Positions 5,373 to 17,399 of a stretch of DNA of 64,000 nucleotides are shown here, piece by piece. The stretch lies in the NCBI GenBank assembly GCA_021737185.1, contig JAIPEL010000005.1, positions 1 through 64,000 on the forward strand, in the 5' to 3' direction. The DNA is from Desulfobacterales bacterium (GTDB lineage Bacteria; Desulfobacterota; Desulfobacteria; Desulfobacterales; CAFBRK01). A program made the translations under genes and the position numbers. The first letter of the stretch is position 1. Each line of letters begins with the position of its first letter. The notes under the pieces were generated by a model. The model had not been told where the DNA came from, made no database searches, and saw only the letters and a program-made list of their open reading frames with translations.

Positions 5373-5510
5373 AAATGACTATAATGACTAAAATGAGCTA
5401 AAATGCCTAAAATGGTAGAAGGCTGCGGCTTTGTTTCGGGCCCTGCTATGCAATTTGCGCTATTCCTTCATTTTAGGCATTTTAGGCATTCTATGCATTT
5501 TAGCTCATTT
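5373..5510. repeat. Palindromic TAGGCATTTT repeat element, copy 1
   Basis: The left arm (TAAATGACTATAATGACTAA..., AAAATGAGCTAAAATGCC) and the right arm (TTAGGCATTTTAGGCATTC..., TAGCTCATTT) are inverted copies around a 57-base GC-richer loop. The right end supplies the TGA stop of cysK-cysS (5505-5507). A second copy sits at 14463-14600 at the end of kdnA. It can form a long hairpin and may end or stabilise transcripts. Confidence 0.85.
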
Positions 5511-7808
5511 GACTTCTTTGTTGGCTCCTGCCCTCCGGTCCCTGACCACGACCCCCATCTTCTTAAGCCGGTCCCGGATCTGGTCAGCCCGTTTCCAGTC
5601 TCCATGCTTTCTTGCCTCGTCGCGCTCGGCCATCATTTTTCGCACCGCATCGTCGTCGTACGCGCCGGTAAAGTCGCAGACGTTCCACACGGCGTCGATC
5701 TCCCGAAACGCTTCCAGGATTTTTCGCGCCCCCGCCGGATCGAGGTGTTCTTCCAGTAGAAGGCGGTTGACCTTTCGCACAATTCGAAACACCGCCGCCA
5801 TGGCCGCCGACGCGTTCAGATCGTCGTCCAGGGCGTCGGTAAACCCCTGCTTCAAATCATACAGCAGCTGGTCGATATCTTCGTAGTGCCGGCCGTCCCG
5901 CACGTTTTGCAGGGAGTGAATGCAGGCGTCGAGCCGCTGAAGAGAGCGGCGGGCGTCGTCGAGGCGATCCGTGGAAAACCGCAGCGGCTTTCGATAATGC
6001 GCGGTCAACAGCCAGAAACGAACCTCCCGACCGGAGTAGCCCTGTTCGGCCAGTTCCGTCAGGGGCGGCCCGCCGGGTTCGCCGTCGACCTCGATCCGGT
6101 CACAGTGCATCCAATATCGGGCCAGCGGCTTTCCGGTGGCGGCAAGAGAGATGGCGATTTCGTTTTCGTGGTGGGGGAAAATATGCTGGCGGCCGCCGGT
6201 ATGGATGTCGAAGCTTTCCCCCAAATACTTCATGGCCATGGCGGCGCACTGAATATGCCAGGAGGGACGGACGTTTCCCCAATCGGTTTTGGCGTAGATC
6301 CCCCGCTTCAACTCGGTCAGGGTGCAGCGTTTGAACAGGGTGAAATCCCGCGGATTGTCTTTTTCGTATTCATCCAGGTTGACGGTGGCGCCGATTTTGA
6401 TCTTCTCCAGGTCGACTCCGGAAAGCTTTCCGTATTCCGGGCTTTGGGAAATGTCAAAATACAGGGAGCGGAGCTTTTCATAGCCGGCGCCCTGCTTTTC
6501 GACCCGCTGGGCCAGGGAGATCATGTCATCTACATGGGCACTGGCCCGGGGGGTTTCATCGGCGGGCCGGATCCGCAGGTAGTTTAGATCTTCTATGATC
6601 TGGTCGACGTGCAGATTCGTGAATTCGGACAGTTCCATCCCGGCCCGCTGGGAGCCTTCGATGGTCCTGTCGTCCAGGTCGGTGATGTTCATCACGTGAA
6701 AAACCTGATGGCCGCGAAACTCAAGGTGCCGGCAGAGAAGATCGGCAAAGATGAACCGGCGGCAGTCGGCGATGCGCATCCGCTCGTAGGCCGTCGGCCC
6801 GCACGTATAGACCGAAGCCCTGCCGCTTCGAAGGGGGCGGAACGGTTCTTTCGTGCGGGTCAGCGTGTTGAAGACATGAAGCGAGATCTCCTCTGCCACG
6901 GTGAACAGCGAGGTGCTCAAATAGCGCTCCCCCCCGTCCGGGCAGATGACCACGATCACCCCTTCTTCCATCGCCTCGGCTTCCCGGCAGGCCACGGCCA
7001 TGGCCGCGCCGCTGCTCATTCCCAGGAAAAGGCCCTCGTGGCGGGCCAGTCTTCGGGTCATTTCAAACGCTTCTTCGTCTTCGACGTTCACTTTCCGGTC
7101 GAGGCGCTTTTTGTCGAAAATCTCCGGGCAGTAGGACTCTTTGAGGTTTTTGAGCCCCTGGAGTTTGTGGCCGAGATAAGGCTCGACACCGATGATCGCT
7201 ACGGCGGGGTTGTATTCCTTGAGCCGCCGGGACAGCCCCATGAGCGTGCCGGTGGTGCCCATGGTGACCACCACCGCCGTCACCCGACCGCCGGTCTGTT
7301 CCCAAATCTCCGGGGCGGTTCCGTAGTAGTGGGCCTCCCAGTTGGCCTCGGTGTTGTATTGATCCGCCATGAAATAGGCATCCGGGCTTTCCCGGACGAG
7401 CCGATAGACTTCTTCGATGGCCCCGTCGGTGCCCAGATGCCCGGGCGTCAGGAGGATCTCTGCCCCCCGGGCTTTGAGGATCTTTTTGCGCTCGATGCTG
7501 ACGGACTCGGCCATCGCCAGCAGCAGCCGGTAGCCCTTCACCGAGCAGACCAGGGCAAGACCGATTCCGGTGTTTCCGCTGGTGGCTTCGATGACGGTCT
7601 TGTCGGCGGTAAGAAGGCCGCTTCGCTCTCCTGCCTCGATCATGGCCAGTGCGGCCCGGTCCTTGATGGATCCGCCGGGGTTGCAGTATTCCAGTTTGGC
7701 CAGAATCTTCACCCGGGGATTCGGGTTGAGCCGGCGAATCTCAACAAGAGGGGTGTTGCCGATGGCTTCGAGAATCGAGGAATATGTCCGCCGTCGTTCT
7801 GAATTCAT
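5505..7808 (-). CDS. Cysteine synthase fused to a cysteinyl-tRNA-synthetase-like domain without HIGH or KMSKS
   Basis: Residues 1-310 are a PLP-dependent cysteine synthase: K49 in GGSIKD forms the Schiff base, SGNTG (77-81) and GTTGT (184-188) hold PLP, and SSGAA and ERYLST follow; GTTGT is CysM-like. Residues 311-767 align end to end with cysteinyl-tRNA synthetase (FNTLTRTKEPF, NITDLDD, CLEFR-type core, C-terminal RADQIRDRLKKMG). The zinc ligands remain (C336 in YTCGPT, C521 in WHIQCAAM, FPHHENE). But the HIGH position reads RIAD (345-348) and the KMSKS loop is replaced by a shortened GEPGGPPL. ATP activation of cysteine should therefore be impaired. It might supply or sense cysteine, but the product is unknown. 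No linker is visible, and the frame is intact. Confidence 0.92.
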   Translation of the reverse strand: MNSERRRTYSSILEAIGNTPLVEIRRLNPNPRVKILAKLEYCNPGGSIKDRAALAMIEAGERSGLLTADKTVIEATSGNTGIGLALVCSVKGYRLLLAMAESVSIERKKILKARGAEILLTPGHLGTDGAIEEVYRLVRESPDAYFMADQYNTEANWEAHYYGTAPEIWEQTGGRVTAVVVTMGTTGTLMGLSRRLKEYNPAVAIIGVEPYLGHKLQGLKNLKESYCPEIFDKKRLDRKVNVEDEEAFEMTRRLARHEGLFLGMSSGAAMAVACREAEAMEEGVIVVICPDGGERYLSTSLFTVAEEISLHVFNTLTRTKEPFRPLRSGRASVYTCGPTAYERMRIADCRRFIFADLLCRHLEFRGHQVFHVMNITDLDDRTIEGSQRAGMELSEFTNLHVDQIIEDLNYLRIRPADETPRASAHVDDMISLAQRVEKQGAGYEKLRSLYFDISQSPEYGKLSGVDLEKIKIGATVNLDEYEKDNPRDFTLFKRCTLTELKRGIYAKTDWGNVRPSWHIQCAAMAMKYLGESFDIHTGGRQHIFPHHENEIAISLAATGKPLARYWMHCDRIEVDGEPGGPPLTELAEQGYSGREVRFWLLTAHYRKPLRFSTDRLDDARRSLQRLDACIHSLQNVRDGRHYEDIDQLLYDLKQGFTDALDDDLNASAAMAAVFRIVRKVNRLLLEEHLDPAGARKILEAFREIDAVWNVCDFTGAYDDDAVRKMMAERDEARKHGDWKRADQIRDRLKKMGVVVRDRRAGANKEVK

Positions 7809-8498: not shown

Positions 8499-9449
8499 CT
8501 ATTCTCCGCGCGGACTCCGGTAAAAATGCCGTCCCAGAATCCGGTGATACGGAGACCATGCCTCCTCCGGGGACTGGGCGTCGAGGAACTCCCGGATGCC
8601 GTTGATCTTTGAATCGATTTCGTCGATGTAGTGAAGGAGAACCGCCTCCATGGTCTTTGGCGGCTCCGGAGATCCGAACTCCAGGGCGCCGTGGTGGCTT
8701 ACGACCATGTGCTGGATCAAACGGCGCTCTTCTTCCGGAAAATCAGAAAGACCGCGGATCTTTTCCTCGATCATCTCCAGACCGATGGCTATGTGTCCCA
8801 GCAGACGTCCCTCGTCGGAATAGTCGATGGCATACCGGTAGTCGAACTCCCGCACCTTGCCGATGTCGTGCAAGACCACGCCGGCAATCAGCCGGTCCCG
8901 ATCGATTCCGCTGTAATGCCGGGCGATCTTGTCCGCCAGGACGGCCATCGACAGGCAATGCTCCAGCAGGCCCCCGATGTAGGCGTGGTGCATCATTTTG
9001 GCTGCCGGCGCCTGCTTCAAGCTCGCCACGAACTGGTCGTCGGTCCAAAACGCCTCCAGCAGCCGGCGCAGCGGATCGGATTGAACGGACTGGCAGATCC
9101 GCGTCAGCCTGTCGAACATCTGCTCCACGTCCTGGGCGGTGGTCGGGAGAAAATCGGCCGCGGCCACCGTCGCAGGGTCGCTGACCTGCATCTCCCGAAT
9201 GACCACCTGGGGTTCTCCGCGGTACTCGCCTACGCTGCCCACGACCCGGACAAAATCACCTGCCGCGGCCGCTGCCATGGCCGCCACGTTGTCCCACGCC
9301 ACACCCCGGATCGCACCGGTCCGGTCCGAGAGTCTGGCCGTCAGGTAGTCGGCGCCGTCTTTTTTCTGGGAAAGACGCCTTTCCGCCAACACGAAGACGT
9401 CTTCGACCCGATCTCCCGGATTCAGGGAAGTGACAAACTGTTTCTTCAA
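8499..9449 (-). CDS. YhaM-like 3'-5' exoribonuclease (OB-fold plus HD domain)
   Basis: Residues 1-100 form an OB-fold nucleic-acid-binding domain (GDRVEDVFVLAERRLSQKKDGADYL, TGAIRGVAWDN). Residues about 150-290 are an HD hydrolase: HHAYIGGLLEHCLSM, VLHDIGKVREFDY and HMVVSHHGALEFGSPEPP carry the metal-binding His/Asp set. This architecture and length match the YhaM/CBF1 family of 3'-5' exonucleases acting on RNA or single-stranded DNA. Its start overlaps the stop of the GlmS-like gene by four bases, and tmk follows within three bases, so the three are translationally linked. Confidence 0.9.
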   Translation of the reverse strand: MKKQFVTSLNPGDRVEDVFVLAERRLSQKKDGADYLTARLSDRTGAIRGVAWDNVAAMAAAAAGDFVRVVGSVGEYRGEPQVVIREMQVSDPATVAAADFLPTTAQDVEQMFDRLTRICQSVQSDPLRRLLEAFWTDDQFVASLKQAPAAKMMHHAYIGGLLEHCLSMAVLADKIARHYSGIDRDRLIAGVVLHDIGKVREFDYRYAIDYSDEGRLLGHIAIGLEMIEEKIRGLSDFPEEERRLIQHMVVSHHGALEFGSPEPPKTMEAVLLHYIDEIDSKINGIREFLDAQSPEEAWSPYHRILGRHFYRSPRGE

Positions 9450-12400
9450 TTGTCTTCTCCACCCACCGGCGGCAGGCCGCCGCCGTTGACCTTCGACACG
9501 ATGAATTCTGCGATCTTTTCAGCCGAGCGGCCGAACAGTTCTTCCATTTCCACCTGGTCGAGAAGCCGGTCATCCCAGGCGACGCTGTTTTCCTGGGCGA
9601 TATTCTTGATCCGCTCGTACTTGCCCCCCAGGGCCTTGATCCGGATCTCCAGGGAAACGTCCGCGGTAAAGCCGATGTGGAGCAGGAGCAGGTGCTCGAT
9701 CAGGTTGGGCGTCTCCGGAGAGGTGGAAATGGCCGGAATCACGACGATGCTGCGGTCGTCTTTCCGTCCCTTGCCGATGTATACGTTGCCCTCCTTGACG
9801 ATGATCCGCTTGGTCCCCTTCAGGCGGTGATCCCTTTCCACCCGGGAGGGAATCGGCTTCAGGGTGCCTCCCTTCCGGACCACTTCGATGGCGGTCTGCT
9901 CGGTGGGCTCGCCGAGCAGGTCCAGGCTGCGGACCCGGTAGAGAATCGACCCCCTGATCTCCGAGACGATGCCCTGAAGATTCTTCAACACGAGGATGTT
10001 GCGGTTGATCAACTGGGAGGGGCTGATGCCGTGCTCTTCAAGGGCGGAGAACAGGATGCCTTCCAGCTTTTCCTGGATCCGGCTCGTGCCGACGGTCACG
10101 GTCTTGGCCTGATGCTTGATGGCATCCACCGGCCGTGCCATGGCGTTGATCGCCTCCCCCAGACAGGAGAACAGCCGGTTGAGCATGTTCAACGCGGTGC
10201 CCTTGACGCCGAAATCGAGCTCGAAATCCGAAACCGGCAGTCGTCCCGACAGGTATTTGAGCAGCAGGGTCAGATCCGACGCCGCCTCGATGCCGAGAAT
10301 TCCCGGCAGCTTCCCGGAAATTTTCTGGCTTCGAAACTGCCGGTAAAAGGAGGCGATTTTTTCCCGGAACGGCCGCTCCAGGATCGACTCGTAGACATCG
10401 AGTCCCTTCTCGGCGCTGGCTTCGACGCTCTGGCGGACTTCTTCCCGGAACCGGTACAGCATCCGGGAGCCGTCGTTGATCGCCAGGGCGGCATGGTATC
10501 CCCACAAATGCCCCACAAGGGTGTTGAGGATCGGCGAGAGGTGTTCGCCCACCGCCGGCACCTGAAAGACGTCTTCTGCGTATGGGCCAAAGCGCTCCTC
10601 GCCCTCGTCGGCGATGACCACGGGTGCGGCCTTGTGGGCTTTGAATATCGCCGTATCCTTGATGATGTCTCCGATCACGCTGGGCCGGGCGCCTGCGGCG
10701 CAGACGATGATCAGCGGTTCGGAAGACAGATCGATGTGCTTTTTATCTTCTACGTAGTCCGAGGAGATGGTCTTGTAGCAGAGTTCGCTGAGCTTGATCC
10801 GGATTTCATCGGCAGCGGCCTTGTTGGGACCGCTGCCCACAGCCGCCCAATAAGTGCGCCCGGCCGCCAGCCGCTTTGCCGAGGCTTCGATCGCCGGCCC
10901 AAGGCCGAGCACGGTGCGCATGTGCACGGGAAGCGCCAGCAGCTGTTGGAGCTCTTCGCCGACGAATCCGGCCGACCGGCGGCGGCGAAGGGCGGCAATG
11001 TAAAGCCCCAGCAGGGCGCCGGCAACGATCTGTGCGTAAAAGGCCTTGGTGGATGCCACGGACATCTCCACATCCCGGCCGCTGCTGGTGTAAATCGTGC
11101 CGTCGGTCTTGAAGGTCAGGTCCGAATCGCGCCGATTGACGATGGCCAGGGTAAAGGCGCCGCGCTCCCGGACCAGATCCACCGTCCGGTTGGTGTCGGT
11201 GGTGGTTCCGGATTGGCTGATGGCAACGATCAACGCGTCGGATAGACTCCGGTGGCCGTTGTTGTCGCAGAGCCGGGAACCGCTCAGCTCCGATGCCTTC
11301 AGGGCGCTGACCTGCACCGAAGGATCGGAGAGATAATAATCCAGAATCCCGGCGCATACCGATGCCGCCACTCCTGCCGTTCCCTGCCCGATGAAATAGA
11401 TGCGTCGAATGGCTCCCTCGGCCAGGGCGTCGCGCACCTCAGGCGGCACCGCCGATCCGTCCAGGACCACCTGGGGCCGCCCCTCGCCGTCGACCTGCCA
11501 CCGGTTGAGCAGCGTCTTTTCCACCGAACGGGGAGACTCTGAAATTTCCTTGAGAAAGTAGTGGGGAAAATTCTGGCGGTCGATGTCCCGCGAGGTGATC
11601 ACCGTCTCGTGAACGTCGCCGGAGGTCAGTTCGATGGGCGTGCCGTCATAGTGCATGGCCTCGATTCCGGCAAGCTCGCCGGCTCCGGCCGAGCCGAGGA
11701 CGACGATCTGACCCTGGGTCCTTCCGTTTGGTCCCTCCACGACGCTTTCTCCGTCGAGCTTCAGGTACCGGCTGGTCTCCTCCACAAAACCGTAGACTTC
11801 CGAAGCCGGCAGAAAACAGCCGCTGCCGAGTCCGACAAAAATCGCCTGTCCGCTTCCCTTCTGGGCCAAAAACAGCTTCCCCGGCGCCAGGTCCGAATGC
11901 ATGGCTATGGCGTGGGAGCCTTCAAAATCGTTCGCCGCCCGCCGGAAGGCTTCGTAGATGCCGTCGCCTGCGGCGAGGTACCGGGCAATCTGCAGGGGGA
12001 TCAGCTTGGTATCGGTGGAAATCTCGGCCGGAATACGAACGCCCTCGTTTTCCAGTCCTTTTTTCAGCTCCATGTAGTTGTCGATGTCGCCGTTGAGGCA
12101 GACATGGATGATCGCGCCGGATTCGGACCCGTCTCCTTCGGCCAGATTGTCCATCGGATGGCAGTTGGCCTCCGTGATGGCCCCCACCGAGGCCCAGCGC
12201 GTGTGGGACAAAATGGAGCAGTCCATCCTGGGAAACGGCGCCAACAGCTGCAGGATCCGGTCATTTCGAATCTGTTCCCGCAAAAACCGGGTGTTGTCTC
12301 CCAGGCTGCCGATTTCCGCCGCGATCTTGTACGTCAATCCCACAGAAAAGATCGGCCGGCCGTTTTCGTCTTTTCCCTCCCGGATATGGATGCTCCGATT

Positions 12401-13291
12401 GGACAGCACCGCGCGAACCAGGCGGTCGCTGACCTCGTTTGCAAGCTTTTGCCGGTCGAGGGTTTCCATGAACCGGTAATAGTCTTCAGGGGCGAGGGTC
12501 ACCAGGATAGAGATTCCGGCCGAATCCCGCCCCCGGACCTCCAGCCGCTCGATGCTGTTCAAGACGGCATTGATCCGGCGAAAGAACCGTACGAGTTCCC
12601 GATCCGGCTCCTTGCCAAGTTCAGGCCGGAGCCAATGAAGCTTTTCCACATTGCCGAGAAGTTCCGTGGAAAAGATCCACGCCACGTCCCGAAGCATTTC
12701 GATCCGCTCATCCATGACGTCGATGGCCGCCTTTCCCAGGCGGCCGGCACGCGCGGCCATCTGCCGCTGCTCGGCCTCGATCACATCGGCGATCTGCCGG
12801 CCAAGGGCCGATAACCGGTTCTGCCGCACCGGATCGGTCAAGATATCGAAAAAGGGACCGTCGGCTTTCAACCCTCTTGCCGCAGTAACAAGGGAGGCGA
12901 CAAATTCTTTTCCACAAAGGTATCGATCGGTAAAATCCGCTTCGCTTCGGCACGATTCGGCGCCTTCTTCGCCCATGCGGCGGATCATCTCCTCGATGGG
13001 TGCAAGGTCTGCAGCCGGGCCCTTAGCAGCCGCTTTGACCGCCACCATTCCAGCCAGGCCGCAGCAAAGACAGGTCTGCCGAAGCGGGAAAAAAACGACG
13101 GCCCCCTCGGGGACCGCGGACAGGGGCCTGGCAAAAAACACCGGCGCTGCCCCCGTCTTGACAATCCTCATCATGATTCCGGCGAAAACAGCCGGTGGTC
13201 TGCCCCCCCAGAGTCGGCGCACCATCCCGCCTTTAGTCGTCAATCGATTGGATACCATCTCAGCCATCACCTTGGGTCCCGACCCCGGCAT
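9446..13291 (-). CDS. Giant GlmS-like protein: class II glutaminase, tandem SIS domains and an extra C-terminal region
   Basis: The order resembles glucosamine-6-phosphate synthase, but at 1281 residues it is twice as long. A glutaminase begins at C77-G78 (LCCGLAG), continues with RGRDSAG (254-260), SHTRWASVG (362-370) and NGDIDNY (400), and ends near FLKEISESPRSVEKTL (579-595). SIS1 spans about 625-775 (IGQGTAGVAAS, ISQSGTTTDT) and SIS2 about 795-960. About 170 residues are inserted between C77 and RGRDSAG, and about 300 residues follow SIS2 with no recognised fold. The catalytic Cys must be N-terminal, so either 76 residues are removed or the start lies downstream (M23, M41). Whether it makes glucosamine-6-phosphate is uncertain. 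Confidence 0.82.
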   Translation of the reverse strand: MPGSGPKVMAEMVSNRLTTKGGMVRRLWGGRPPAVFAGIMMRIVKTGAAPVFFARPLSAVPEGAVVFFPLRQTCLCCGLAGMVAVKAAAKGPAADLAPIEEMIRRMGEEGAESCRSEADFTDRYLCGKEFVASLVTAARGLKADGPFFDILTDPVRQNRLSALGRQIADVIEAEQRQMAARAGRLGKAAIDVMDERIEMLRDVAWIFSTELLGNVEKLHWLRPELGKEPDRELVRFFRRINAVLNSIERLEVRGRDSAGISILVTLAPEDYYRFMETLDRQKLANEVSDRLVRAVLSNRSIHIREGKDENGRPIFSVGLTYKIAAEIGSLGDNTRFLREQIRNDRILQLLAPFPRMDCSILSHTRWASVGAITEANCHPMDNLAEGDGSESGAIIHVCLNGDIDNYMELKKGLENEGVRIPAEISTDTKLIPLQIARYLAAGDGIYEAFRRAANDFEGSHAIAMHSDLAPGKLFLAQKGSGQAIFVGLGSGCFLPASEVYGFVEETSRYLKLDGESVVEGPNGRTQGQIVVLGSAGAGELAGIEAMHYDGTPIELTSGDVHETVITSRDIDRQNFPHYFLKEISESPRSVEKTLLNRWQVDGEGRPQVVLDGSAVPPEVRDALAEGAIRRIYFIGQGTAGVAASVCAGILDYYLSDPSVQVSALKASELSGSRLCDNNGHRSLSDALIVAISQSGTTTDTNRTVDLVRERGAFTLAIVNRRDSDLTFKTDGTIYTSSGRDVEMSVASTKAFYAQIVAGALLGLYIAALRRRRSAGFVGEELQQLLALPVHMRTVLGLGPAIEASAKRLAAGRTYWAAVGSGPNKAAADEIRIKLSELCYKTISSDYVEDKKHIDLSSEPLIIVCAAGARPSVIGDIIKDTAIFKAHKAAPVVIADEGEERFGPYAEDVFQVPAVGEHLSPILNTLVGHLWGYHAALAINDGSRMLYRFREEVRQSVEASAEKGLDVYESILERPFREKIASFYRQFRSQKISGKLPGILGIEAASDLTLLLKYLSGRLPVSDFELDFGVKGTALNMLNRLFSCLGEAINAMARPVDAIKHQAKTVTVGTSRIQEKLEGILFSALEEHGISPSQLINRNILVLKNLQGIVSEIRGSILYRVRSLDLLGEPTEQTAIEVVRKGGTLKPIPSRVERDHRLKGTKRIIVKEGNVYIGKGRKDDRSIVVIPAISTSPETPNLIEHLLLLHIGFTADVSLEIRIKALGGKYERIKNIAQENSVAWDDRLLDQVEMEELFGRSAEKIAEFIVSKVNGGGLPPVGGEDN

Positions 13292-13339: not shown

Positions 13340-14597
<1,258 letters not shown>

Positions 14598-14600
<3 letters not shown>

Positions 14601-15794
14601 CCCTACCAACTCCCTCAACACCCTCTCCATGGCCTCGCACCGCCGATCCAGGTCTTCCTCGGTCCATCCCAGTTTGATCTGCATCGAAATCGTTCTGGCC
14701 ATGACCGAATCGGATTGCGGCAGATCGACGGCGCTGTAGTCCGGACAGTGGTCGAATTCAGCCGCCGGAAGCCGGGCGGCGCACTGCAGCCTCTTCAGAT
14801 GCTCCCACTGGCGCAGGTAGTGCCAGTTGTTGTCGTACCAGTAAAAGCACCCGTCCACCCCGGCGTCATTGAACGCCGCCGCAGTCTTGCGGGCAGAGTC
14901 TTCGTCCGGGAGCAAAAAAGAGAGAAAGGTGGCCGAATCTCCGCTTTCGTCGGGAATCCGACGAAACCGAATTCCGGAAAATCGCGCCAGGGCCTCTTTG
15001 AGCCGGTCCCGGTGGCGCCGCTGGATCTCCAGGATCCGGTCGAGCTTCCGCAGCTGGGCCAGTCCGACTGCCGCATTGAGTTCGCTGATCCGAAAATTGG
15101 TTCCGAGAATCGGATGTCTCTCCTTGCCCCGGTCGTTTCCGATGTGGTCGTGGCCGTGGTCTGCGAAGCTGTCTGCGGCCCGATACAGCGCCGCATCGTC
15201 GGTCACCACGGCGCCGCCCTCCCCGCAGGTCACGGTCTTGACCGGATCAAAAGAAAAACAGCCCATGTGTCCGAAGGTCCCTGCCGCCTTTCCCCGGTAG
15301 GCGGCCCCTAACGACTGGCAGGCGTCTTCGATCAGGACCAGCTTCCGGCTCCGGCAGATTTCAACAATCGCATCGATGCGCGCCATGGCGCCGCACATAT
15401 GCACCGGGATCACCGCGCGGGTCCGTTCCGAAAACTTGTCTTCGATTCGATCCGGATCGAGGCAAAGCGTTTCGTCGATTTCTGCAAAAACGGGTACGGC
15501 GCCCGCGGTAAGCACCGATTCGACCGTTGCCACGAAGGTAAACGGCGGAACGATGACTTCGTCTCCGGCGCCGATGCCGCAGGCCGCCAGGGCGATGCTG
15601 AGCGCGGCGGTGCCGCTGGAGCAAAGATGGCAGTAGCCGGCGCCCAGCCGTTCGGTGAGCTCCTCTTCGAAAGACCGCGCCTTCCAGCGGCCTTTCCGGG
15701 CGCCCTCAAAGCCGTATCGAAACAAAACGCCGGTTTCGATCACGTCCATGACTTCCTTTCTCTCCTCGTCGCCGAATATCTCAAACCCCGGCAT
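14598..15794 (-). CDS. kdnA: 8-amino-3,8-dideoxy-manno-octulosonate transaminase
   Basis: A DegT/DnrJ/EryC1-fold PLP aminotransferase that installs the C8 amino group on Kdo for LPS. It begins MPGFEIFGDEER and carries CSSGTAAL, VPPFTFVAT, EDACQSLGA and the PLP lysine K186 in SFDPVKTVTCGEGG. The FADHGHDHIGNDRGKERHPI and DGCFYWYDNNWHYL segments match what I recall of Shewanella KdnA, so this is more specific than a general DegT call. Length 398 is normal. It lies upstream of kdnB with the palindromic repeat between them, so they probably share a pathway and perhaps a transcript. Confidence 0.92.
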
Positions 15795-15965: not shown

Positions 15966-17399
15966 TTATCCCGGAACGTTGCGCCGGTCCGAAGGCCGAC
16001 GGGCGAATGCATCCTGGAAGTACTGCCGGATGGCCTGACGGGCATAGTCTGCGGCCCGGACGCCGATGTACTCCTCGTGGGCCACGACCGCGGACAGCGC
16101 AAACTGCGCATCTCCATCTTTTTCCCTGGCAAATCCCACGAACCAGTCGTATCGGGCGTCGTTGTTCCGGCTGTTGATCGAGCCGGTCTTTGCACCGATG
16201 TTCAGCTTGGACAGGACCCAATCCCGGTCGGCATCGCGGAAAGTCTGGCGCAATGTTCCGTCGTCGACCGTTGCCTGCATCAGATCCGCAAGCTGCCGAC
16301 AGGCCGCCGGTGAAATCACCTCCTGGATTTTTTCGGGCCGGGTGCGGTAGACGATCCGTCCCGTCGGATCGGTGACCCGATCCACGATGCTCGGCTCGAC
16401 CAGTTTTCCGCCGTTGAGCACCACCGAGGCAATCAATGCGCCATGGAGCGGAGAGATCCTGGTATCCCGGTTGAATCCGCTGGCCAGCTCCGCCCAGTAG
16501 TACGGTTCGTCGGTGATTTGAAACGTGCTGGCGGGAAGCGAGACATCGAATTCGATCTGCCGGTTGAAGCCGAACGCCTCGGCATATTTGGCCAAAAGTT
16601 CCCGGCCGAGCCGATGGGTCCCGATTTTGCCGAAGACCGGGTTGATCGACTGGGCAAAAGATTTTCGGAAGGTCGTCCGGTTCGTGTAGCGGTTCTGCAC
16701 GGTTCCAAGCTGGGATTTGTAAAGGGTGTGCTTCCGGCCGTTGTAGATCAGCTGGGAATCGGGCAGCAGCCCGAGCTCCTGAATGGCGGCTGCGGCAGTG
16801 ACGATCTTGAACACGCTGGCCGCGGGAAACCGCTTCTCGATACACGGGTTGCTGCTGCCTCCGGTCTTGTCGTATCCGACCATGGCCAAAATCCGGCCGG
16901 TGCCGGGTTCCATGGCCACGATGCCGATGTATCGGGAATTTCGCTTGTCGAGTCGATCCATCAGCATCTGCTGCAAGGGCAGTTGAATACTGGTCTGTAC
17001 AAGATGGGGCCGCCGGTCGAGGGTGATTTCGAATCCCGATTCTTCGAGATTGACCAGATCCGCCGCCGATATCGCCGTTTGAAGGTCTGTCTTTTCCAGC
17101 AGACGGGCGTCCGGCTCGGTAAAAGAGTCTGTTTTTTCGGGGGCCGCGGTCATGCGGTCGGACAGGAGCCAGAACCCGGCCCCCAAGGCAAGTACCGCCG
17201 CTGCAATCATCACTCCCCTGGCCATTCGCAACTTGATCCTCTGCCGGAGCCGATGCTGCTTGAGCCGGTTCTGGTACTGCCTCCACCCGGCCTGGCAGGT
17301 GCCGAGGGTTCGATCGATTCTGTTTCGCATCCGTGGGGGCGCTTTCGTCTGCTTTCCGGAAAAAGCGTTTCTGTCTGACTTCGGCCGCTGCCGGCGCAC
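15966..17399 (-). CDS. Penicillin-binding protein, transpeptidase domain
   Basis: A membrane-anchored peptidoglycan DD-transpeptidase. A positively charged 60-residue cytoplasmic tail leads into one membrane segment (about 61-80). The catalytic motifs are all there: S195-VFK in PAASVFK, S251-IN and K404-TGS. There is no glycosyltransferase domain and no large dimerisation domain, so at 477 residues it is shorter than FtsI or MrdA and closer to PbpA/PbpB-like proteins of other phyla. The start may be further in, since several Met precede the membrane segment. It lies 26 bases after metG on the same strand, which suggests co-transcription. Confidence 0.9.
   Translation of the reverse strand: MRRQRPKSDRNAFSGKQTKAPPRMRNRIDRTLGTCQAGWRQYQNRLKQHRLRQRIKLRMARGVMIAAAVLALGAGFWLLSDRMTAAPEKTDSFTEPDARLLEKTDLQTAISAADLVNLEESGFEITLDRRPHLVQTSIQLPLQQMLMDRLDKRNSRYIGIVAMEPGTGRILAMVGYDKTGGSSNPCIEKRFPAASVFKIVTAAAAIQELGLLPDSQLIYNGRKHTLYKSQLGTVQNRYTNRTTFRKSFAQSINPVFGKIGTHRLGRELLAKYAEAFGFNRQIEFDVSLPASTFQITDEPYYWAELASGFNRDTRISPLHGALIASVVLNGGKLVEPSIVDRVTDPTGRIVYRTRPEKIQEVISPAACRQLADLMQATVDDGTLRQTFRDADRDWVLSKLNIGAKTGSINSRNNDARYDWFVGFAREKDGDAQFALSAVVAHEEYIGVRAADYARQAIRQYFQDAFARRPSDRRNVPG

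Follow-up and report, generated by a model that had tools for sequence, protein, structure and literature searches.

GlmS (EC 2.6.1.16) opens the way to peptidoglycan, lipopolysaccharide, and amino sugars, and known forms of control over it include the glmS ribozyme, small RNA, and feedback by UDP-GlcNAc. Other Ntn glutaminases expose their catalytic cysteine by removing a leader, as glutamate synthase does, and as does the propeptide-type PurF of B. subtilis and plants, with a leader in B. subtilis of only 11 residues. Proteins of the GlmS/GFAT family (TIGR01135; b3729 in E. coli) are built from a class II glutaminase, two SIS domains, and a C-terminal tail, in that order, while the transferase half of PurF is a PRTase rather than an SIS unit. 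Removal of the B. subtilis-type PurF propeptide is outlined in one account as autocatalytic, E. coli PurF being made without a propeptide (PMC7056826). In human GFAT-1, the cysteine is said to be freed simply when the initiator methionine is taken off (PMC7000685). Among open-licence papers searched by title and the start of the abstract, no account of a GlmS propeptide or of a double-size GlmS was found.

The window considered here is the whole analyzed stretch of 64,000 nucleotides from a Desulfobacterales bacterium (contig JAIPEL010000005.1). An open reading frame at 9446-13291 on its minus strand probably encodes, with a likelihood that we put at about 80%, the GlmS of this organism as a double-size precursor whose propeptide is cleaved to give a mature enzyme making glucosamine-6-phosphate. 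Its parts are as follows.

9446..13291, minus strand: long GlmS-like precursor, 1281 amino acids in the longest reading (open reading frame call, Pfam, and NCBIfam).
13064..13291, minus strand: N-terminal leader (putative propeptide), 76 residues from ATG 13291, with likelier starts at ATG 13267 (-68) and ATG 13225 (-54) (start codons, codon periodicity, and a motif in 85 of 95 rows).
13061..13063, minus strand: catalytic cysteine, Cys77 of the precursor and Cys1 of the mature protein (invariant, 95 of 95 rows).
12584..13030, minus strand: poorly conserved helical insert between the first strand and first helix of the glutaminase, mature residues ~12-160 (conservation, helices in the model, and a GlmS match that begins after the insert).
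11603..12583, minus strand: remaining class II glutaminase, mature residues 161-487, with RGRDSAG, HTRWAS, NGDIDN, and DTK motifs (alignment and structure match).
10472..11596, minus strand: two SIS (sugar isomerase) domains, mature residues 490-864, with Lys757, Glu760, and His776 corresponding to E. coli Lys485, Glu488, and His504 (Pfam, PDB relatives, and alignment).
10136..10471, minus strand: helical insert leading from SIS2 to the C-tail, mature residues 865-976 (structure model and alignment).
10079..10135, minus strand: embedded GlmS C-tail, RPVDAIKHQAKTVTVGTSR, with Ala986-Lys987 corresponding to E. coli Ala602-Lys603 (alignment, conservation, and motif count).
9449..10078, minus strand: C-terminal extension of ~210 residues, of which mature residues ~1001-1159 are perhaps GAF/PAS-like (weak matches).

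The first-pass annotation had described a GlmS-like protein of double the usual size with its glutaminase cysteine at residue 77, and both points are borne out. Codon 77 of the 1281-residue frame opens the motif CGLAG, and two GlmS models, NF001484 (E 3e-73, 247 bits; cut-off 381) and TIGR01135 (E 1e-67, 229 bits, below its cut-off of 418), match residues 358-937 of the precursor. The curated TIGR01135 cut-off is an operational test of the model and not a property of the enzyme; on this score, the long form stands outside the family as curated, and it very probably has the function of GlmS as a sister group. Pfam recognizes the glutaminase as class II, along with a single SIS domain, and the closest PDB entries are those of E. 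coli GlmS and human GFAT.

Domain order, catalytic residues, and the C-tail motif are shared with GlmS/GFAT, as is the role suggested by distribution (see below). The long form differs from that family in its twofold length, the propeptide carried by most members, a helical glutaminase insert, the embedded position of the C-tail, an extra C-terminal domain, a score under the family cut-off, and the replacement of Ser303 by Ala. The glutaminase insert, earlier put at about 170 residues, is present and measures ~150 residues against E. coli GlmS, in which Arg26 is the counterpart of mature Arg177; a further ~65 residues separate the RGxDSAG and HTRWA motifs in comparison with the E. coli enzyme. 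An AlphaFold model of leader and glutaminase (65 sequences; mean pLDDT 88.7) has as its top match the E. coli GlmS structure 1xff (Z 26.1, rmsd 2.0, 228 aligned), with PurF at Z 19.6. The insert is all-helical in this model (~model residues 69-205), a region that the list of fold matches barely probes, and the leader is modelled with low confidence (pLDDT 56-73). Of the 300 extra residues that had been counted after the SIS domains, the length holds, with ~340 residues beyond the end of SIS2, but not all of it is extra: the catalytic C-tail lies inside, at mature residues 977-995, leaving as truly additional ~110 residues before it and ~210 after.

E. coli GlmS ends in DVDQPRNLAKSVTVE, for which the long form carries RPVDAIKHQAKTVTVGTSR with equal spacing, ~110 residues further from SIS2 than in E. 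coli and 210 residues before the end of the protein. The motif D-x5-AK[ST]VTV occurs in all rows compared (128/128 long-form, 4/4 distant, and 6/6 ordinary) and in none of 200,000 shuffled versions of the C-terminal part. The long form presents, then, a C-tail that seems functional from an internal position. Modelled by AlphaFold from 75 sequences (mean pLDDT 88, pTM 0.58), the C-terminal part shows a helical stretch plus an alpha/beta domain; the C-tail itself is poorly modelled (pLDDT 51-68), which is expected because its SIS partner is absent from the model. Sequence searches against Pfam and PDB with the C-terminal part gave nothing convincing, Foldseek with the C-terminal extension gave no match at E <= 0.001, and in plasmid sequences the C-terminal part had no match; matches in phage sequences were to ordinary GlmS-like proteins only, over 31-50% of the query. 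Within a limited list of candidate families, fold comparison of the extension gave weak matches to the GAF domain of PtsP (3ci6; Z 6.6, rmsd 4.3, 93 aligned) and to a large GDH (7jsr; Z 7.8, rmsd 4.5, 166 aligned), both in the range that the tool terms a common arrangement. From the model, a GAF/PAS-like fold might be guessed at, tentatively.

The active sites of both halves are largely retained. In the alignment, the protein has the same residue as E. coli GlmS at C1, R26, H71, R73, W74, H86, N98, G99, and D123 of the glutaminase, and at S347, Q348, S349, T352, K485, E488, H504, A602, and K603. Glutaminase Cys1, Arg73, Asn98, Gly99, and Asp123 are identical in this protein and in 13 long-form rows, and the isomerase residues Lys485, Glu488, His504, and Lys603 are kept as Lys757, Glu760, His776, and Lys987 in mature numbering. 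The sugar-phosphate pocket keeps Gln348, Ser349, and Thr352, with Thr in place of Ser347 in 5 of the 13 rows, and the phosphate-binding Ser303 is Ala in all 13. Other changes in the long form are His77 to Val or Met, Tyr28 to Arg, and Glu102 to Asp. Catalytic roles for Lys485, Glu488, His504, and Lys603 of GlmS (E. coli numbering) are set out in PMC7000685.

The long form is found in 55 of 58 genomes of the order, the bacterium's own included and some as fragments only; the matches in relatives are mostly full-length, at 52-64% identity. The only ordinary GlmS among the 58 is a 614-residue protein in a genome (G006) that lacks the long form, and two genomes (G021 and G042) have neither. A wider contig collection yielded 579 confirmed stretches, the best 80 of which are mostly from Desulfobacterales, Desulfobacteraceae, or Deltaproteobacteria. 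Across the phylum, 297 genomes were sampled; ordinary GlmS exceeds the cut-off in 234 of them, while of the 37 that carry the long form or a distant relative of it, 36 are without an ordinary GlmS that passes this cut-off. One genome (G238) carries both (L129 and L172), an ordinary GlmS with a 616-residue frame and a long form with a 1277-residue frame. Some genomes of the phylum have neither form, and ten that were examined show no GlmS-sized SIS protein; assembly gaps are the simplest reason. A long frame in G092, considered as a GlmS candidate, proved unrelated.

The first-pass annotation had raised the case of a genome without an ordinary glmS, and this is the case here: no protein in the bacterium's own genome exceeds the TIGR01135 cut-off, which 14 of 14 control genomes do, and the best match is the long form itself, pointing to it as the working GlmS. 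The assembly is 91% complete, and a gap could explain the lack of an ordinary glmS in this one genome, but not plausibly in 55 relatives. Glucosamine-6-phosphate is needed in these bacteria, because GlmM over its cut-off is present in 20 of 20 relatives. NagB run in reverse was considered as another source and set aside, as NagB was not found in the bacterium's own genome; the GlmS-based search of that genome likewise turned up nothing like NagB-II, the other SIS matches being KdsD and an RpiR-like protein. The long form very probably serves its clade as GlmS, because it is the sole GlmS-like protein, its distribution is complementary to that of ordinary GlmS, and the catalytic residues and C-tail are kept; it is most likely the bacterium's only glucosamine-6-phosphate enzyme. 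The apparent lack of glmS in these genomes would be filled by it.

Other matches examined in the genome's GlmS search were PurF, a second PurF-like protein, AsnB, KdsD, and the regulator, whose RpiR-type reading was made by eye, no family having matched. In PurF (G000:C33:12716-13384 and L003:793-2232), the cysteine is residue 22 of the frame, so that this enzyme too looks like the propeptide type; the second PurF-like protein, at C161 (L004), is diverged and scores 199 bits. Distant long GlmS-like proteins of ~1160 residues occur in G062, G099, G134, and G158 (L155, L156, L157, and L158), genomes without ordinary GlmS. These share the glutaminase insert, SIS domains, embedded C-tail (HQAKTVTVG), and C-terminal extension, and differ in starting with Met-Cys, in having no leader, and in forming a separate branch of the tree.

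An N-terminal cysteine had been said to require either processing of the precursor or a later start. The need for such a cysteine stands, but a later start is unlikely and was rejected for this gene: ATG, GTG, and TTG are absent from the 25 codons before Cys77, the nearest being a GTG at -26 and an ATG at -36, and the leader is conserved as protein. AAAGG precedes ATG -54 and AAGG precedes ATG -68 (upstream bases read by eye), and these look like better starts than ATG -76, so that the leader probably has 53-75 residues. The sequence before the cysteine aligns without gaps to a consensus that is roughly [VI]Y[FW]G[KR]-x(4)-VP-x-[GN]-[SA]-[IVL]-[VI]-F-F-P-x(3)-N-x-L-x. Within the 85 of 95 rows of relatives that have this motif, Pro -8 is found in 84, Phe -9 in 75, and Gly -23 in 68, and many different residues (Cys, Asn, Ser, Gly, Phe, or His) occur at position -1. 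More distant members of the phylum carry the leader too. Near-identical copies, matches short of the query span, L084 (in which the contig starts at Gly2), and L163 and L194 (N-terminus unaligned or cut) were dropped before counting. Across the 117 leader-bearing rows, mean entropies at codon positions 1, 2, and 3 are 1.43, 1.14, and 1.81 bits from -30 to -1, and 1.88, 1.87, and 1.94 bits from -60 to -35. From this codon periodicity it is concluded that the leader is translated and selected as protein.

The leader is present in 117 of 128 long-form rows, and the remaining 11, scattered on the tree, start exactly with Met-Cys; in three of these (L053, from Desulfonema magnum, L025, and L068), a single codon separates the in-frame stop from the Met. 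Desulfatitalea alkaliphila (L090) is among the relatives with a leader. On a FastTree tree, which has long branches and low support in places, the two states need ~5 changes and the deepest split among the 128 rows has leader-bearing members on either side, so that repeated loss of an old leader is the simplest reading. The Met-Cys relatives are the best indirect support for the same cysteine as the mature N-terminus of the long form. PurF likewise has members with and without a leader, those of B. subtilis and E. coli, respectively, as outlined in PMC7056826. The further likeness to propeptide-type PurF is that of an Ntn glutaminase whose cysteine is freed by leader removal, a cleavage that is putative in the long GlmS.

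The best reading of these data, by analogy with PurF, is a pro-GlmS with a cleaved propeptide. Cleavage and self-cleavage of the leader, the substrate, and what the added domains do are inferences from sequence. The first product would be a precursor whose leader is ~53-75 residues long. The mature enzyme, of ~1205 residues, would then hydrolyze glutamine and pass ammonia to the SIS domains, where fructose-6-phosphate would be converted to glucosamine-6-phosphate, the C-tail with Lys987 closing the site. The helical insert and C-terminal extension would have been added to this core, perhaps with a part in assembly or regulation.

Removal of the leader by another protease, or by aminopeptidase trimming, in an otherwise identical enzyme is a possibility to be held tentatively. 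Conservation of the segment [VI]YFG[KR]...GSIVFFP far from the cleavage site is what a recognition site would show, but the variability of position -1 looks as if only Cys +1 matters, and self-cleavage has its precedent in PurF, as described in PMC7056826. Retention of the leader as an anchor to a membrane or complex, with an enzyme that is ammonia-driven or not a glutaminase, is improbable: many leaders, read by eye, are basic and hydrophobic ahead of the motif, yet the equivalents of the glutaminase cysteine, Arg73, Asn98, Gly99, and Asp123 are invariant, and 11 of 128 relatives expose the cysteine through a Met-Cys start. With a lineage-wide GlmS whose propeptide is conserved and cleaved, the preferred reading, PurF-type maturation would reach a second superfamily enzyme, and the natural pairs of relatives with and without a leader would make the purpose of such propeptides testable.

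Three genes lie upstream of the long form, each identified by model match and a survey of flanks.

13340..14419, minus strand: iron-type alcohol dehydrogenase, which we take to be kdnB.
14598..15794, minus strand: DegT/LegC-type sugar aminotransferase, presumably kdnA.
15966..17399, minus strand: penicillin-binding transpeptidase-like protein.

Among 31 loci with long flanks, the upstream genes recur in the order seen here (metG in 25, the penicillin-binding protein-like gene in 20, kdnB-like in 11, and kdnA-like in 9), while no locus has the exoribonuclease, tmk, or cysK-cysS of the downstream side again within the flanks covered. The first-pass annotation had placed the gene between an exoribonuclease and kdnB rather than with cell-wall genes; kdnB is indeed its neighbor and the exoribonuclease does not recur, but the rest is less apt, given the transpeptidase-like gene just upstream, which recurs in 20 of 31 loci. 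Another sugar phosphate as substrate, for instance in synthesis of lipopolysaccharide sugars, would fit the kdnA/kdnB-like neighbors and the change of Ser303 to Ala in the phosphate site, and is nevertheless quite unlikely, since the long form replaces GlmS across genomes, the catalytic Lys, Glu, His, and Lys are kept, and the kdnA- and kdnB-like genes adjoin it in only 9 and 11 of the 31 loci. Hardly credible is a leader that is an artefact of mechanical reading frames, with translation beginning downstream at a non-standard codon near the cysteine: Met does fall within 27 residues before the cysteine in 23 of 117 rows, but codon periodicity, ungapped conservation, and the 25 codons free of starts before Cys77 speak against it, and codon -1 is start-like in only 3 of 117 rows even counting CTG and ATA/ATC/ATT.

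More speculatively, the sulfate-reducer clade and its relatives may have replaced GlmS with a self-maturing pro-enzyme in which the propeptide and a sensor-like domain form a switch on entry to amino sugars, a proposal that is rather doubtful as it stands. If true, a switch by propeptide and C-terminal domain would be a layer of control unlike the ribozyme, small-RNA, or UDP-GlcNAc mechanisms.

Two further observations concern GlmU and a downstream gene. The best GlmU match in the bacterium's own genome (G000:C137:30667-31404) is to the uridyltransferase half only (profile positions 3-243 of 452; a 289-residue frame). GlmU exceeds its cut-off in 0 of 20 relatives, and only 2 of the 37 long-GlmS genomes (G128 and G158) are among the 148 of the phylum sample with GlmU over the cut-off. 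The half-length GlmU had suggested an acetyltransferase in the C-terminal part of the long GlmS; this idea was dropped, as the model shows two strands, a helix, three strands, and helices, an arrangement nearer to GAF than to GNAT, and as G128 and G158 pair the long GlmS with a full GlmU. At 5505..7808 on the minus strand, a 767-residue open reading frame fuses cysteine synthase to cysteinyl-tRNA synthetase, with a cysK/M match at residues 12-302 and a cysS match at residues 310-763.
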